In this document: piece by piece, positions 4,747 through 12,086 of the stretch
Numbering within the stretch: the first letter of the stretch is position 1
Layout of the letters: each line of letters opens with the position of its first letter
IMG/VR virus record: IMGVR_UViG_3300035184_000339
Coordinates: 1 to 25,694 of that record
Origin: a virus
Length of the DNA: 25,694 nucleotides
Strand: one strand, 5' to 3'
The notes under the pieces: generated by a model
The model's input: only the letters and a program-made list of their open reading frames with translations
The model's database searches: none
Told to the model about the DNA's origin: nothing
Made by a program: the position numbers and the translations under genes

Positions 4747-4754
4747 AATAAATA
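4747..4754 (+). promoter_or_regulatory. Late-like box AATAAATA before gp26-like gene
   Basis: AATAAATA on the plus strand, one base from the TATAAATA consensus, gives a ~30-base leader with an AAGGAAA ribosome site before the ATG at 4792. Confidence 0.35.
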
Positions 4755-4791: not shown

Positions 4792-5625
4792 ATGAACCCA
4801 CTAAACAAGTATTTTAGGCAACCTAAAATTTACATAAAATTGCCAACTGGCGGCAAATTTAATCCAGAACTAGAAACAACTGTATTAGATGAAATTGGTG
4901 TGTGCTCTATGTCTGCCATAGATGAAATAACATTGAAGAATCCAGAATCACTACTCAATGGCGAGGCAATCATCAGTATAATAAAAAGTTGTGTTCCCAG
5001 TATTTCTGATCCTAGAAAATTATGTAATATAGATGTAGAAGCATTATTCCTAGCAATACAGTACGCAACTTACAACAAAGATATAACACACGAACATACA
5101 TGTAGTAAATGTAGTGAAGTCAGTGAATTTTCAATTGACGTTAACTATATGTTAAATCGTTTTCCAGATATTGATTTCATTGAACCAATTCAATATGAGG
5201 ATGCATTGATTCATATCAGACCGCCGACAGTGGATAACATCACTAGAATGACACTCATTGATTTAGAACAAAAACGTATTATCCAGGGGCTATCTACAGT
5301 AGATGACCAGTCTGAAGAAATGGAAGTGGCAAAGAAGTTCTACAATAGTTTTAAGAAAATTGCAGAATTCAATGTTGACATGTTAGCAAATGCAATAAGT
5401 CATATTGAAATCCCAGATATGAAAGTAAGTGACCAAGATCAAATTTCTGAGTTTTTACATAATATACCAACCACATTAGTAGACGAAATCAATGAAGCAG
5501 TTGGGAAATTAGTGGATAAACCAGAAGAAGCAACATTAATGAAGTTTGTATGTTCAGAATGTGGTCAAGAGGACGAGGTACAGATGGAGATGAACCCTGC
5601 AAATTTTTCAAAAGCTGGCTCTTGA
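4792..5625 (+). CDS. 26: gp26-like tail/baseplate assembly protein (upstream part of a frameshift pair)
   Basis: A 277-residue protein. The N-terminal motif (QPKIYIKLPTGGKF, residues 10-23) and the MSAIDEITLKNPESLLNGEA stretch are characteristic of the T4 gp26 family, annotated as baseplate hub or hub-assembly protein. It carries two CxxC pairs (Cys104/107 and Cys254/257), suggesting a bound zinc. T4 gp26 has 208 residues. Good ribosome site (AAGGAAA) 8 bases before the ATG. The last codons overlap a second ORF in the -1 frame, and an AAATTTT slippery heptamer with a downstream hairpin lies at 5601-5637. A fraction of ribosomes may therefore make a longer 349-residue product. This resembles tail assembly chaperone pairs such as lambda G/GT, which act on the tape measure protein, here the divergent neighbour. 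Confidence 0.85.
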   Translation: MNPLNKYFRQPKIYIKLPTGGKFNPELETTVLDEIGVCSMSAIDEITLKNPESLLNGEAIISIIKSCVPSISDPRKLCNIDVEALFLAIQYATYNKDITHEHTCSKCSEVSEFSIDVNYMLNRFPDIDFIEPIQYEDALIHIRPPTVDNITRMTLIDLEQKRIIQGLSTVDDQSEEMEVAKKFYNSFKKIAEFNVDMLANAISHIEIPDMKVSDQDQISEFLHNIPTTLVDEINEAVGKLVDKPEEATLMKFVCSECGQEDEVQMEMNPANFSKAGS

Positions 5626-5840: not shown

Positions 5841-5854
5841 TTTTAAAATACATC

Positions 5855-5883
5855 TTGCAATTATGTAAAAATTGATGTATACT
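5855..5883 (+). promoter_or_regulatory. Sigma-70-like promoter into the gene-free region
   Basis: Plus strand TTGCAA (5855-5860), 17-base spacer, TATACT (5878-5883). That is 4/6 and 5/6 of consensus. A perfect 10-base palindrome, TGTACGTACA (5883-5892), covers the expected start point and could be an operator. No ORF follows for 700 bases, so the product would be an RNA. Confidence 0.5.
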
Positions 5884-5892
5884 GTACGTACA

Positions 5893-5937
5893 CTAATATA
5901 AATCTAATATAAATCTAAATACACAGCTAATATAAAC
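5893..5937 (+). repeat. Repeated CTAATATAAAY units
   Basis: CTAATATAAAT occurs at 5893-5903 and 5904-5914 back to back, and CTAATATAAAC at 5927-5937. A partial CTAAAT lies between them. Each unit contains TATAAA(T/C)C, close to the late box TATAAATA, so the array may be weak tandem late promoters, a binding array, or simple AT-rich repetition. Confidence 0.6.
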
Positions 5938-6521
5938 CTAGTACATTACCCCCATAACTAATAAAATGCTAATATATCAAACATAGTGGAACTGTTAGTT
6001 GGGTAGCCAACTCGGGATTGAATCTGCCAGCATTTAAAGATGTTGTTGCCGTTAGACTAGTAGGGATGAATTCCTACCATCTTCTCGTTAACCACAAATA
6101 AGAGTATTCAAAATATTCAACAGCCATGACTCTAAAGGTCAGGGCTGACCAGTTTCTACCGTGCTTTTTAGCACATACTGCTGATAGACTACTTAGTACT
6201 ATCGACTCTACAATGTTTTTTAATGTATAGATATTGTAAGGGTGCCGTTGGGTCGCAAGACGCAATAGTGAATGATGAGGGGATCGCCAACCGACCTCGC
6301 TGTATCTGGCAGCTAGTTCACATACATTAGTTACGAGCATAGGACAGATTCATATCTGTGTTAAGTTTTTTTCAATTGTCCTGGCAACAGGGCAATTGTG
6401 TCTACTTCACAGGACAGAATATATAAGATTATATCATAATTATATTATATATTAATATATATGTGGATTAGAAAAGAAATACTGAATTAAATGAATGAGT
6501 GGAACGAATGAAGTTAATGAA

Positions 6522-6554
6522 AGTATTAGGTCTTTAGACCTTTTAATGAATACT
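6522..6554 (+). terminator. Weak hairpin terminator before the nuclease gene
   Basis: AGGTC-TTTA-GACCT (6528-6541) followed by TTT, with an outer AGTATT/AATACT pairing (6522-6527/6549-6554). The U-run is short, so termination may be partial and allow read-through into the gene at 6619. Confidence 0.4.
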
Positions 6555-6618
6555 AAAAAAAATATATATTATTATATTGTGTAAATAGATAGTAATGATA
6601 ACATAGAAATGGACAGAT

Positions 6619-7164
6619 ATGGCGAGTAAAAGTAAAACAAAAGGAAGTAGTTACGAAAGAGATGTATCTAAGTTTCTGAGTGAGAAATATAATGGGAGTT
6701 TTGTAAGAGTACCAAATTCCGGAGCGTATATCGGAGGTTCTAATTACCATCGTGCCCAGCATCTTAGTGAGGGCCAAGTTCGTTCTTTTAAAGGAGATAT
6801 TATTCCGCCTGATGAATGGAAGCATTTTAACTGTGAGTGTAAGAACTACGCAGACTTTACATTTCATCACTTCTTTATGAACAAACATATACCGATCTTA
6901 GAAGATTGGATTAGTCAGTGTTTGGATGTAGCAGAAGATGGGGATGTGAATATTATGTTTATCAAGATTACCCGTAAAGGGCAATTTGTATGTTATCCAG
7001 AGTATATGTTTCAAGCAGGGTTCACAACCACTAACTATACGATATATCAATCCGCCGACCATGGTAAATGGATATTTGCTGGATGGGACTCATTCTGGAA
7101 CAAAAACACAGACAAAATTAAAGATGCCTGTGTTAATGGATTTGATAGAAATAGTTTTTACTAA
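6619..7164 (+). CDS. PD-(D/E)XK nuclease, Holliday-junction-resolvase-like
   Basis: A 181-residue protein. The catalytic pattern of the PD-(D/E)XK superfamily is readable: an N-terminal helix with Glu13 (GSSYERDVSKFL), Asp60 in a KGD turn, then Glu73-Cys-Lys75 (CECKNY) on the next strand. The spacing fits archaeal-type resolvases and related single-domain nucleases. A likely role is cutting branched DNA before packaging or in recombination, or degrading host DNA. The true substrate cannot be read from sequence. An ATG at 6609 is in another frame, so 6619 is the start. Its ribosome site is weak (GGACAG). The gene converges with the small ORF at 7174 with a 9-base gap. Confidence 0.75.
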   Translation: MASKSKTKGSSYERDVSKFLSEKYNGSFVRVPNSGAYIGGSNYHRAQHLSEGQVRSFKGDIIPPDEWKHFNCECKNYADFTFHHFFMNKHIPILEDWISQCLDVAEDGDVNIMFIKITRKGQFVCYPEYMFQAGFTTTNYTIYQSADHGKWIFAGWDSFWNKNTDKIKDACVNGFDRNSFY

Positions 7165-7173
7165 TTCAGATAG

Positions 7174-7365
7174 TTACTTATCATCTTTGATCATATTTTT
7201 TGGTGCAGGTCTCCGAAATTTATACTTCATATCAGCCGCATCTGTGCCTAGTCCTGCCGGTATAACTTGTACTTTGCCACCTTTAGCAAGAAAATCTGCC
7301 ATGGCTTTATCTGCTATGGCTCTTTCTTTTTCCGACTTCGCTGTAGTTTGTCTCGTAATACTCAT
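7174..7365 (-). CDS. Small unknown phage protein (63 aa)
   Basis: A 63-residue basic protein. The N-terminal half is a charged helix (SEKERAIADKAMADFLAKGG) followed by a short beta-like KVQVIPAG segment. Proteins with this 'KAM.DFL.KGGKV..IP' pattern recur as small unannotated ORFs in marine T4-like phages and may bind nucleic acid, but no function is established. An AGGA ribosome site precedes the ATG at 7365. A near-consensus sigma-70 promoter with an overlapping GATAAATA box lies at 7402-7435, immediately downstream of a terminator, so the gene has its own transcript. It converges with the nuclease gene. Confidence 0.8.
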   Translation of the reverse strand: MSITRQTTAKSEKERAIADKAMADFLAKGGKVQVIPAGLGTDAADMKYKFRRPAPKNMIKDDK

Positions 7366-7401
7366 TTTAAAGATCCTAACTGTTAATGTTATGTAGTCAT
7401 A

Positions 7402-7435
7402 TATTTATCATAACACATATCTTCTTAGGTGTCAA
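7402..7435 (-). promoter_or_regulatory. Sigma-70 promoter with overlapping late-variant box
   Basis: Minus strand TTGACA (7435-7430), 17-base spacer, TATGAT (7412-7407). GATAAATA (7409-7402) overlaps the -10 box, so one site could serve host polymerase early and gp55-polymerase late. It begins immediately downstream of the terminator at 7440-7468 and serves the 63-aa ORF. Confidence 0.7.
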
Positions 7436-7439
7436 TGAA

Positions 7440-7468
7440 AAAACCCGACACTAGAAGTATCGGGTTTT
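7440..7468 (-). terminator. Strong intrinsic terminator
   Basis: AAAACCCGA (7440-7448) pairs perfectly with TCGGGTTTT (7460-7468). Inner ACT/AGT pairing closes the loop. Both strands end in a T-run, and on the minus strand the stem is followed by TTTTTT. It ends minus-strand transcripts from the 7587-12086 operon and from the small-RNA promoter at 7551. Confidence 0.85.
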
Positions 7469-7545
7469 ATTTCCACATGCTCTGTTGGAATAATAAGAAA
7501 GTAATTATCAGTTAGAGAGAATGGTAAATAACTTTCTTTCTTATA
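7440..7545 (-). ncRNA. Candidate ~105-nt small RNA
   Basis: A promoter (7551-7579) and a strong terminator (7440-7468) on the minus strand bracket about 100 bases with no ORF. The transcript could fold as a long hairpin: AAGAAAGT (near 7495) pairs with ACTTTCTT (near 7531). A small TTCC/GGAA stem follows, then the terminator. Target and function are unknown. It could alternatively be a leader whose terminator is conditional. Confidence 0.5.
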
Positions 7546-7550
7546 TACTT

Positions 7551-7579
7551 AATATATCATAAGAATGATACATTGTCAA
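7551..7579 (-). promoter_or_regulatory. Sigma-70 promoter for the candidate small RNA
   Basis: Minus strand TTGACA (7579-7574), 17-base spacer, TATATT (7556-7551). The -35 is perfect and the -10 matches 5/6. It lies just after the stop of the histone-like gene, and no ORF follows before the terminator at 7440-7468. Confidence 0.65.
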
Positions 7580-7586
7580 CCTTTAA

Positions 7587-7763
7587 TTACAACGCATTCT
7601 TCTTTTCTTGAATTTCTGCGCGGCGCATTTTTGTTAGTTTACCAATTTCACCAAGTGCTTTACGCGCACGTGCTGCTGCTGCTTTTACGCCTTTTTCTTC
7701 AAATGCGGTATGCTCTTTGACGTATGTTTCGACTTGTTCTAGAATTTGATCGTGATTTGTCAT
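7587..7763 (-). CDS. Histone H1-like (Hc1-type) small basic protein
   Basis: A 58-residue protein. An acidic first half (HDQILEQVETYVKEHTAFEE) is followed by a Lys/Arg/Ala-rich half (KAAAARARKALGEIGKLTKM, then RRAEIQEKKNAL). The 'KA.ARARKALGEI.KL.K.RRAEIQE' pattern matches histone-H1/Hc1-like proteins of T4-like marine phages and bacteria, which probably bind and compact DNA. The AGGAGA ribosome site before the ATG at 7763 lies in the short gap after gp46, so it is the last gene of the gp55-gp47-gp46 operon. Function is inferred from composition. Confidence 0.8.
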   Translation of the reverse strand: MTNHDQILEQVETYVKEHTAFEEKGVKAAAARARKALGEIGKLTKMRRAEIQEKKNAL

Positions 7764-7772
7764 AGTATTCTC

Positions 7773-10194: not shown

Positions 10195-11197
10195 TGTAAA
10201 TTTCAATCAATACGTTCTTATCGTAACTGCCATCAAGTGATGCTAGTTGAGATATAACAATCTGGTCGATAGTTTCAAAGTGAATTTCTGCACCTACATC
10301 TTCGGTGTGCTCTGACAACTTTACTGGTACTAGTGTGACATCACGCAATGCGTATGTTTCCACAAACGTATCTTTGATAAAGTTTGCCTCTTCATACGAA
10401 ATATCAATGTCTAGTGAAATCTTAATAGTAGACTTTGGTAATAAATATTTTTCTGGTGAATCTAATAGTTTAGATAACGGTATTGTCTTATACTTAGGCG
10501 CATCTTCCCATGAAAAGAATTCAGGTTCACCATCCCATTCTAAGAACATCCAACCACGATCATCATCCCATGCATCACTAAAGTTGTGTGGGAATGCATT
10601 GCCAGTATAGATAATGTTATCTTTAACTTGTCTTTGATGGAAGTGACCGGTGAATACATAGTCTTGGTGTGAGAACATCTCACGTTTCAGACCGCCATGA
10701 TCTGGCATTTCTACCATAGCATTTAGTTTGAATGTTGGAAGTTCAAAGTGACCAAACATATACTTAGATTTTATCTTAGGAACTTTCTTCCATTCGTCTC
10801 CTACTAGCCAACTGACTAGTGCAACATCGCCTATGATTGTAGTATCATCCACAACTGTGATGTTTTCAAATTCTTTAGCAAACTCTACAGAACTAACTTC
10901 ACGGCTTTCACGGTAAAACAAATCGTGGTTGCCTTTTAAAAAGTAAACATTATCAAACGCATCATTGAGTTTTCTTAAACACTCTATACTATACTTCATA
11001 GTTGAAATGTTCAAACTCGCACGATTGTGATGCCAATCACCTCCAAAGATACAGGTTTCGCAACCTTTCTCCTTTGCTTGAATTATAAACCAATCGACAA
11101 AATCACTACAATCTTTGTTGTGTTGTTGTGCATTGTTTCGCATTCCAAAATGAATGTCTGTGAAGAATGCTAAATTTTTGAATAGATTATCAGTCAT
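10184..11197 (-). CDS. 47: gp47 recombination endonuclease, Mre11-like phosphoesterase subunit
   Basis: A 337-residue protein, matching T4 gp47 (339). Metal-binding motifs of the Mre11/SbcD calcineurin-like family are in order: Asp14-Ile-His16 (FTDIHFG), GGDW with Asp54, GNHD at residues 89-92, GHFE with His150, and GHFHQ with His185 and His187. It is the nuclease partner of gp46. The frame is open upstream to 11242, but that part overlaps gp55. The ATG at 11197 gives the usual N-terminus (MTDNLFKNLAFFTDIH) and an 8-base overlap with the gp55 stop, typical of translational coupling. Confidence 0.95.
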   Translation of the reverse strand: MTDNLFKNLAFFTDIHFGMRNNAQQHNKDCSDFVDWFIIQAKEKGCETCIFGGDWHHNRASLNISTMKYSIECLRKLNDAFDNVYFLKGNHDLFYRESREVSSVEFAKEFENITVVDDTTIIGDVALVSWLVGDEWKKVPKIKSKYMFGHFELPTFKLNAMVEMPDHGGLKREMFSHQDYVFTGHFHQRQVKDNIIYTGNAFPHNFSDAWDDDRGWMFLEWDGEPEFFSWEDAPKYKTIPLSKLLDSPEKYLLPKSTIKISLDIDISYEEANFIKDTFVETYALRDVTLVPVKLSEHTEDVGAEIHFETIDQIVISQLASLDGSYDKNVLIEIYNGL

Positions 11198-12086
11198 TAT
11201 CTGCGTAAATCTCTTTGATTGTTTCAGTTGGGATTTGTTCATCAGTGATGTTAGATTTGATAACTTTCTTCCACCGCTCTTGTGATTTCATTTCGTGCTC
11301 TAACTGACGTGTCCAACTCGGAGCTTGTCCTGCTTTTTCAAGTAGATCATCACGAATGCCTTGATTTTTCTTTTCGATATTCAAAACACGTGTGAACGAA
11401 TTATTAACCGCCGCAGTATAGTATGCGAATGGGTTGTCTGACTTAGCTTCATTAAACTGTAGGCCAATTTGTGCCAATTGTAGAAGTGCTTGTCCGCGCA
11501 TTTCATCAATATATGTATATCCACGCCAGTTGCCACGCTGTGAATAACGCTCAACTAGTTTGATATACATATTTGCCAATGTTGCAGTGATTTTACCATG
11601 TATCAAATCAAATTCTTTTGTTTTGGGATTGAAGTGCGAGATTGCAACTTCTGCAATTTCGCCATTTCGTAGAATGTATTGCTTGAATGGTGGAAATGGA
11701 AGTTTTACCTTATGGTCAGCAACTGTCTTTGGATTTGCTTTACGTCCAGGCTCGTCTGGAATATGCTCAAATGTCATTACTCGAAATACAAGTTCTTCTT
11801 CACGGAATGATTCTATATCAACTGCAAAGTGAACTTGCTTCAACTTCTTATCAGTGTTAAGATCCCATGCTGCTTTTTGGATACGATCTGCTCGACTTTG
11901 ACGTGCGACACCTTCTAGACTACGAATTTCTTCTTGTAGGTCTAGTTCTCCGGCGACATTATCGATAATCACGTCATATTGATGGTGTAGTTCGCGATTT
12001 TCAAACCAACTGTAGTTAGATTTTGATATATGAATTTCTTTTAGCATATCTCTGTTGTTTAAGTAATTTTGACCTCGTCGAGCCAT
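11190..12086 (-). CDS. 55: gp55 late-transcription sigma factor with a large internal insertion
   Basis: A 298-residue protein, against 185 for T4 gp55. The N-terminal NYLNNRDMLKEI (residues 7-18) corresponds to the T4 start region (NYVNNKELL). Residues ~171-245 form the sigma region-2-like core: NMYIKLVERYSQRGNWRGYT, then DEMRGQALLQLAQIGLQF, then a NPFAYYTAAVNNSFTRVL helix. Between them lie about 125 residues with no T4 counterpart, including a beta-rich stretch (residues 85-165). gp55 joins host RNA polymerase core, with gp33 and the sliding clamp in T4, and recognises TATAAATA late promoters, several of which are in this window. It is the first gene of the gp55-gp47-SDR-gp46 operon behind a perfect sigma-70 promoter. 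Ribosome site AGGAGA. Confidence 0.9.
   Translation of the reverse strand: MARRGQNYLNNRDMLKEIHISKSNYSWFENRELHHQYDVIIDNVAGELDLQEEIRSLEGVARQSRADRIQKAAWDLNTDKKLKQVHFAVDIESFREEELVFRVMTFEHIPDEPGRKANPKTVADHKVKLPFPPFKQYILRNGEIAEVAISHFNPKTKEFDLIHGKITATLANMYIKLVERYSQRGNWRGYTYIDEMRGQALLQLAQIGLQFNEAKSDNPFAYYTAAVNNSFTRVLNIEKKNQGIRDDLLEKAGQAPSWTRQLEHEMKSQERWKKVIKSNITDEQIPTETIKEIYADND

Follow-up and report, generated by a model that had tools for sequence, protein, structure and literature searches.

A large structured noncoding RNA in a group of marine jumbo phages, with leader repeats common to gp32 leaders

Introduction

What large structured RNAs of phages, GOLLD and ROOL among them, do and which proteins they work with is a long-standing puzzle. 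The GOLLD, ROOL, and OLE classes form homo-oligomeric RNA particles (PMC12286853); the RNA described here is known from sequence alone. Its likeness to ROOL and GOLLD is clear: it is phage-encoded, several hundred nucleotides long, rich in helices, contains a pseudoknot, and encodes no protein. It differs from them in having no Rfam match, another structure, and no nearby tRNA in the window, by which we mean the whole 25,694-base IMG/VR virus record analyzed. Besides, it is limited to one jumbo-phage group, and the repeats in its leader are common to gp32.

Two other kinds of RNA are comparable. The lncRNAs of phage K (Kayvirus) adjoin tRNA genes, are transcribed, and were likened by their authors to GOLLD and ROOL (PMC9241854). 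They are long noncoding phage RNAs like this one, differing from it in their proven transcription and in their position beside tRNA genes. HEARO-type nuclease-associated RNAs are likewise structured RNAs beside an endonuclease gene, whereas the present RNA precedes two unrelated nuclease folds and has no Rfam match.

A described counterpart of the leader is the gene 32 operator of T4 and RB69. In T4, gp32, the single-stranded DNA-binding protein (SSB), holds down translation of its own mRNA: it first binds a pseudoknot and then, in a cooperative manner, the unstructured UUAAA/UAAA repeats that span the ribosome site (PMC535899, PMC3014915). By analogy, the CUAAUA repeats seen at the corresponding place in the gp32 leaders of the jumbo phages may be a similar set of single-stranded, A/U-rich, SSB-bound repeats. 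The sequences are different (UUAAA/UAAA in T4 and CUAAUA here), and the repeats of the RNA head a noncoding RNA rather than a ribosome site, with gp32 binding being putative.

Results and Discussion

The gap and its phage

The gap is located at 5841–6618. Its left neighbor is a 96-aa ORF, which overlaps gp26 (4792–5625; Pfam T4_baseplate), the baseplate hub gene, at the end of the latter. Its right neighbor is a PDDEXK_15 nuclease gene (6619–7164); also to the right are a late sigma factor gene (11190–12086) and SbcC/SbcD-like genes of the gp46/gp47 type. The portal protein is 50.9–55% identical to those of Atu_ph07, PA5oct, and Phosso. The portal and hub proteins group the phage with the jumbo phages of Atu_ph07/PA5oct/Phosso. 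It had been taken for a marine T4-like phage in the preliminary description; the portal identities place it in this jumbo-phage group instead, not among ordinary T4-likes. T4-type late promoters (TATAAATA or AATAAATA) are seen near gene starts at 4747 on the plus strand and at 893, 613, and 536 on the minus strand, in agreement with the presence of the late sigma factor gene.

The same description gave about 220 bases as the upper limit of all other gaps, which is unsafe: 7165–7772 consists of the tail of an ORF (6986–7396) and ORFs of at most 63 aa. It is a second stretch with small ORFs. Its counterpart in the largest relative, a 342-kb contig (G001), is at 183633–184357, where one strand folds somewhat better than shuffles.

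Noncoding nature and distribution

Nothing between 5840 and 6619 makes a convincing gene, as had been stated before. The sole ORF of at least 40 aa inside the gap is 88 aa long, on the minus strand, and not conserved. The longest ATG ORFs of the homologues are 0–43 aa on the plus strand and 0–88 aa on the minus strand. ORFs of at least 25 aa cover no column in more than 56% of the homologues, and indels among the homologues are mostly not multiples of three. The lack of a common reading frame and the non-triplet indels indicate that this is a noncoding RNA. No codon-wise conservation was found among the homologues, and hence no protein gene is revealed. The gap holds a conserved noncoding structured RNA on the plus strand, roughly 520–650 nt in length (about 600 bases).

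The Rfam search of the gap matched no family even at E up to 5, with one unrelated weak match on the minus strand. Neither the covariance models of GOLLD, ROOL, and OLE, nor the group I/II intron core and domain V, nor the tmRNA, RNase P, and tRNA family models matched. The tRNA search found none in the window, and the nearest tRNA in the 342-kb relative is tens of kb away; the neighborhood of tRNA genes that is frequent for GOLLD and ROOL is not seen. Against annotated phages, the gap as a DNA query returned short A/T-rich chance matches only. No earlier description of the RNA was found in the literature searched, whose coverage leaves out most subscription journals. This large structured phage RNA represents a new class, one that matches no Rfam family. 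The preliminary reading, an unrecognized large ornate RNA, is supported by the Rfam result, the homologous gaps beside gp26, the covariation of stems and pseudoknot, and the lack of codon-wise conservation; what it missed is the jumbo type of the phage, the CUAAUA repeats, the doubtful nature of the terminator, and the exchange of nucleases downstream.

More than 80 IMG/VR contigs, all from one group of marine jumbo phages, have a homologous gap, and the 342-kb contig is one of them. Their position beside gp26 is confirmed in dozens of phage contigs, and gp26 adjoins the gap wherever the contig includes the upstream region. A search with the PDDEXK protein encoded downstream yielded 29 contigs, 28 of which have the homologous stretch upstream of the gene. 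The RNA-derived pattern GTGCCGTTGNNNCGNAAGNNGCAATA, in which some columns were fixed as invariant while 6251 was left free and 6287 was outside its reach, yielded 87 stretches. These two positions form the pair that carries the argument for the pseudoknot described below. A looser pattern in viral contigs added one relative only (L132) among the newly fetched loci tested. The RNA is absent from the species-genome collection in a pattern scan, which indicates that it is confined to this phage group on present evidence. The covariance model of the core found nothing in the related cultured jumbo phages PA5oct, SCTP-2, Phosso, and Atu_ph07, and switching off the filters changed nothing for PA5oct and Phosso.

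Phosso (Sinorhizobium phage; L121:7224–8237) and PA5oct (L119:1168–2680, minus strand) have long gene-free or gene-poor, partly structured stretches upstream of a PDDEXK gene, with no recognizable relation to this RNA. In the 342-kb contig, no other stretch lacking an ORF of 70 aa is as long as the gap. This contig has ten tRNAs and a separate permuted tmRNA of alphaproteobacterial type. The tmRNA (tag ANDNYQPEMAMAA) and a manA RNA are seen at L177:1167–1489 and L177:4861–5059.

Secondary structure

The plus strand of 5960–6420 folds with −141 kcal/mol (z = −4.9), and 0 of 100 shuffles is as good; folding of the minus strand is no better than that of shuffles (z = −0.9). The RNA is arranged as a promoter, a mostly single-stranded leader, a core at about 5982–6418, an A/T linker, and a 3' domain (Table 1). 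Both the stems and the pseudoknot covary strongly in the homologues, based on a tree and pair counts of 34 representatives and, for the pseudoknot domain, a pairing test on 33 sequences.

Table 1. Features of the RNA and the adjoining gene. Positions are those of the window.
Feature	Position	Strand	Remark
Sigma-70-type promoter TTGCAA-17-TATACT	5855–5883	+	transcript would be expected to start near 5890
5' leader, five CUAAUA repeats	5893–5974	+	repeats start at 5893, 5904, 5927, 5958, 5969
5' domain	5982–6095	+	multibranched; closing stem 5986–5989/6092–6095
5' domain hairpin	5997–6002/6007–6012	+	conserved pairing
5' domain stem	6013–6017/6083–6087	+	conserved pairing
5' domain stem	6022–6029/6046–6053	+	imperfect in the window sequence itself
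5' domain hairpin	6060–6065/6072–6077	+	conserved pairing
Hairpin	6121–6126/6142–6147, inner 6129–6131/6137–6139	+	alifold and pair counts
Hairpin	6183–6190/6195–6203	+	6184/6202 and 6188/6197 each changed jointly three times
Long-range stem closing the pseudoknot domain	6220–6228/6322–6330	+	moderate support
Pseudoknot GUUGG/CCAAC	6247–6251/6287–6291	+	covariation
Hairpin in pseudoknot domain	6252–6254/6259–6261	+	pairing test
Stem in pseudoknot domain	6268–6275/6314–6321	+	pairing test
Stem-loop	6277–6280/6295–6298 and 6284–6286/6292–6294	+	34/34 paired
Hairpin in pseudoknot domain	6299–6303/6309–6313	+	pairing test
Direct repeat AGGACAGA, copy 1	6341–6348	+	changes jointly with copy 2 in relatives
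11-bp hairpin	6373–6398	+	conserved stem, variable loop
Direct repeat AGGACAGA, copy 2	6411–6418	+	conserved core ends here
3' domain stem	6478–6527	+	after variable A/T linker
3' hairpin AUUAGGUCUUUAGACCU	6525–6541	+	perfect inverted repeat; invariant
PDDEXK_15 nuclease gene	6619–7164	+	right flank of gap; SegE-like GIY-YIG gene instead in other clade

In the 5' domain, 96.3% of cells are paired against 84.5% when shuffled, and 12 of the 24 pairs show changes on both sides. The two adjacent domains previously drawn here (5964–6035 and 6037–6083) are replaced by one multibranched domain with the hairpins 5997–6012, 6022–6053, and 6060–6077.

The pseudoknot domain is paired in 99.3% of cells (90.3% when shuffled), with both-sided changes in 12 of its 25 pairs, and the pairing falls to about 40% when the partner is slid by one base. 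The pair 6251/6287, the variable one of the pseudoknot, shows ten independent double changes between G-C and A-U on the tree with no breaks. It alone reaches E < 0.05 in a strict phylogeny-aware test of all pairs, done with our own R-scape-style script and not with R-scape itself; support for the other stems comes from counts of compensatory changes. The long-range stem that closes the domain has two joint changes at 6227/6323, and 27–34 of the 34 sequences are paired, depending on the pair. The pseudoknot between GUUGG and CCAAC and the stem-loop at 6277–6298 had both been proposed from the window sequence; the former proves exact and backed by covariation, the latter correct. As for the 11-bp stem with its GCAA loop at 6373–6398, the stem is conserved and the loop is not.

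The direct repeats flanking the last hairpin of the core change together, the variants being AGGACAGA, GGCAAGT, TATCAAG, TGACAAG, and GAACAAGT. There is no conserved complementary partner for them inside the RNA. They could be contacts between molecules, which would fit an abundant, self-assembling RNA particle of the ROOL/GOLLD kind, independent of gp32, with the CUAAUA repeats merely keeping open or protecting the 5' end. Further likenesses to those RNAs are its length, its strong promoter, its wealth of helices, its pseudoknot, and its origin in a phage (PMC12286853). Against this, neither sequence nor structure matches those families, the window has no tRNA, and the coincidence of the repeats with those of gp32 is left without a reason. 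Such an assembly is the main alternative, although we consider it rather unlikely, and SSB could bind the leader in that case too.

Ends of the RNA

Many relatives have promoter-like sites where the window has its sigma-70-type promoter. The other, more distant clade reads TTGACA-17-TAGTAT there, with a consensus −35 box. The sigma-70-like promoter noted earlier at the left end is plausible and conserved.

The 3' end is less clear. Joint changes in the stem of the 3' domain are found at 6482/6523, 6490/6514, 6492/6512, and 6496/6508. The core of the 3' hairpin, AGGTCTTTAGACCT, is present in 109 of 109 loci, once each, and also once in each of six large records. The U-run after the hairpin is not conserved, which indicates that the hairpin is not a standard terminator. 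Of the hairpin stop suggested previously for the right end, the hairpin stands, being invariant, while its role as a stop is doubtful. Clade L012–L029 contains a promoter-like TTGACA-17-TATAAT between the core and the 3' domain, and the other clade contains the late-promoter-like AATAAATA there. Because of these sequences, the 3' domain may be either a part of the RNA or the 5' UTR of the next gene, and the 3' limit of the RNA is uncertain.

The inverted repeat of the 3' hairpin, ATTAGGTCTTTAGACCT, is invariant amid diverging surroundings, with one copy in each record examined. It could be a protein-binding site on either DNA or RNA. A pairing between CUAAU of the leader and AUUAG of this hairpin was considered and dropped; L040, L048, and L071 read UUUUAGG there.

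Exchangeable nuclease genes downstream

In all clades inspected, a nuclease gene begins 17–60 nt past the invariant hairpin on the same strand. Which nuclease it is depends on the clade. It is PDDEXK_15 in the clade of the window and in one more clade, and a SegE-like GIY-YIG nuclease (PF19835, E = 5e-35) in a third (L033, L038, L040–L047, and others), the two being swapped at the same site behind the RNA. gp26 upstream and the gp46-like genes downstream remain despite the exchange. The PDDEXK family also occurs without the RNA in L031, and so does the GIY-YIG family in Melnitz. The RNA precedes two unrelated genes, and both families are found without it, which indicates that it is tied to no particular gene as its leader and to no particular nuclease as its partner.

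These facts bear on two alternatives. The close, co-oriented nuclease gene would suit a cis-acting 5' leader controlling transcription or translation of that gene. This is improbable, because the same RNA stands before two genes of unrelated folds rather than a constant regulated gene, and because promoter-like sequences separate the core from the 3' domain in two clades, one of them being AATAAATA. The core also exceeds the usual size of a riboswitch, which counts against a cis-acting leader. The other alternative is an intron, a guide RNA, or the RNA of a homing element acting with the adjacent nuclease. The nuclease adjoins the RNA in the loci examined and the GIY-YIG protein is a member of the SegE family of homing endonucleases; nevertheless this is very hard to uphold, as no intron model of Rfam matches, the flanking genes are intact, one RNA is combined with two nuclease folds, and either family can do without the RNA.

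The SegE-like GIY-YIG nucleases are labeled "NAD synthetase" in PHROG 447 and in many phage records. The label is apparently a propagated mis-annotation.

CUAAUA repeats in the leader and in gp32 leaders

In all homologues whose leader can be read, the stretch between the promoter and the core contains three to six repeats of the CTAATA type. In 43 distinct RNA leaders, CTAAT is observed 177 times against 23 expected. The repeats are predicted to be mostly unpaired (0.66, compared with 0.38 in the core).

When 24 records were scanned for three such repeats, the matches fell in the RNA leader, at a single additional place in each of five records, and at one stray site; the reversed control pattern had no match in any of the 24. 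The five further places are 40–49 nt upstream of the start of gp32 (PF08804), the SSB gene, and gp32 is present in exactly those five records. Among 37 distinct gp32 leaders, whose encoded proteins are 72–100% identical to the query, all contain CTAATA, with two to four copies between promoter and start codon (123 observed, 14 expected). The last repeat usually abuts the Shine-Dalgarno sequence, and the repeats thus extend through the gp32 5' leader up to the ribosome site, as in a gp32 operator. In the 342-kb genome, the gp32 leader is, besides the RNA leader, the sole cluster on the sense strand leading into a gene. In the RNA, the repeats have the same orientation as in gp32 mRNA and are irregularly spaced.

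Unpaired repeats that face the same way at irregular spacing speak more for an SSB-type filament on the RNA than for an operator on DNA. At both loci, the repeats follow a sigma-70-type promoter, and CTAATA could accordingly be read as a site on DNA through which a phage regulator acts on the promoters of both the RNA and gp32. We find this quite improbable: the repeats are short and non-palindromic, they are always on the transcribed strand at irregular spacing, and the last one in gp32 is usually in contact with the Shine-Dalgarno sequence, all of which suits an RNA operator better. Repeats adjoining a structured transcript with a strong promoter are also reminiscent of a primer or origin RNA for DNA replication, like ColE1 RNA II, with CTAATA as iterons. 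This is scarcely credible, since the 342-kb contig has no GC-skew extremum at the RNA and the same repeats are in the gp32 leader.

The front of the RNA carries the repeats of gp32 leaders, and these common repeats suggest that gp32 may bind the leader of the RNA. The RNA would work like an ornate RNA, probably with an SSB operator attached. The best explanation, to which we would give an even chance, is a gp32-bound RNA that titrates or senses free SSB. Host polymerase would probably transcribe the RNA from the sigma-70 promoter at 5855–5883. SSB not engaged on single-stranded DNA would then bind the CUAAUA leader cooperatively. The RNA would compete with gp32 mRNA for free SSB, so that autorepression of gp32 would be delayed; in addition or instead, occupancy by SSB may switch the state of the RNA itself. 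Both gp32 as the reader of CUAAUA and the consequence of its binding are what we infer from the sequences.

Two observations count against this explanation. The repeats head the RNA 5' of the core, while those of gp32 mRNA come after a putative 5' structure and before the ribosome site. PA5oct and Phosso have no repeat common to the gp32 leader and the matching gap. Some other regulator common to the RNA and gp32, acting on either RNA or DNA, is also conceivable. Simple folding of crudely trimmed gp32 leaders, seeking a pseudoknot like that of T4, gave no consistent structure.

The large conserved core implies more than titration. It can be speculated, with somewhat less than even confidence, that this is the first phage noncoding RNA with the operator repeats of the SSB (gp32) of its own phage, reading or buffering the pool of free SSB and linking that pool to a large folded RNA that has some further activity. 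If true, SSB autoregulation as known from T4 would be extended to a trans-acting RNA in jumbo phages. This RNA class offers a covariation-backed fold together with an unusual clue to its partner, the repeats of the SSB gene, and therefore its function is directly testable with purified protein and an in vitro transcript.

The gp32 leaders themselves (L216–L295, for example G001:C1:226337–226383) amount to a candidate translational operator for SSB, unlike that of T4 in sequence. The gp32 leader of Atu_ph07, an Agrobacterium phage (L299:98–325, minus strand), contains several copies of a different short repeat similar to CACAATT, which is possibly another SSB operator sequence.
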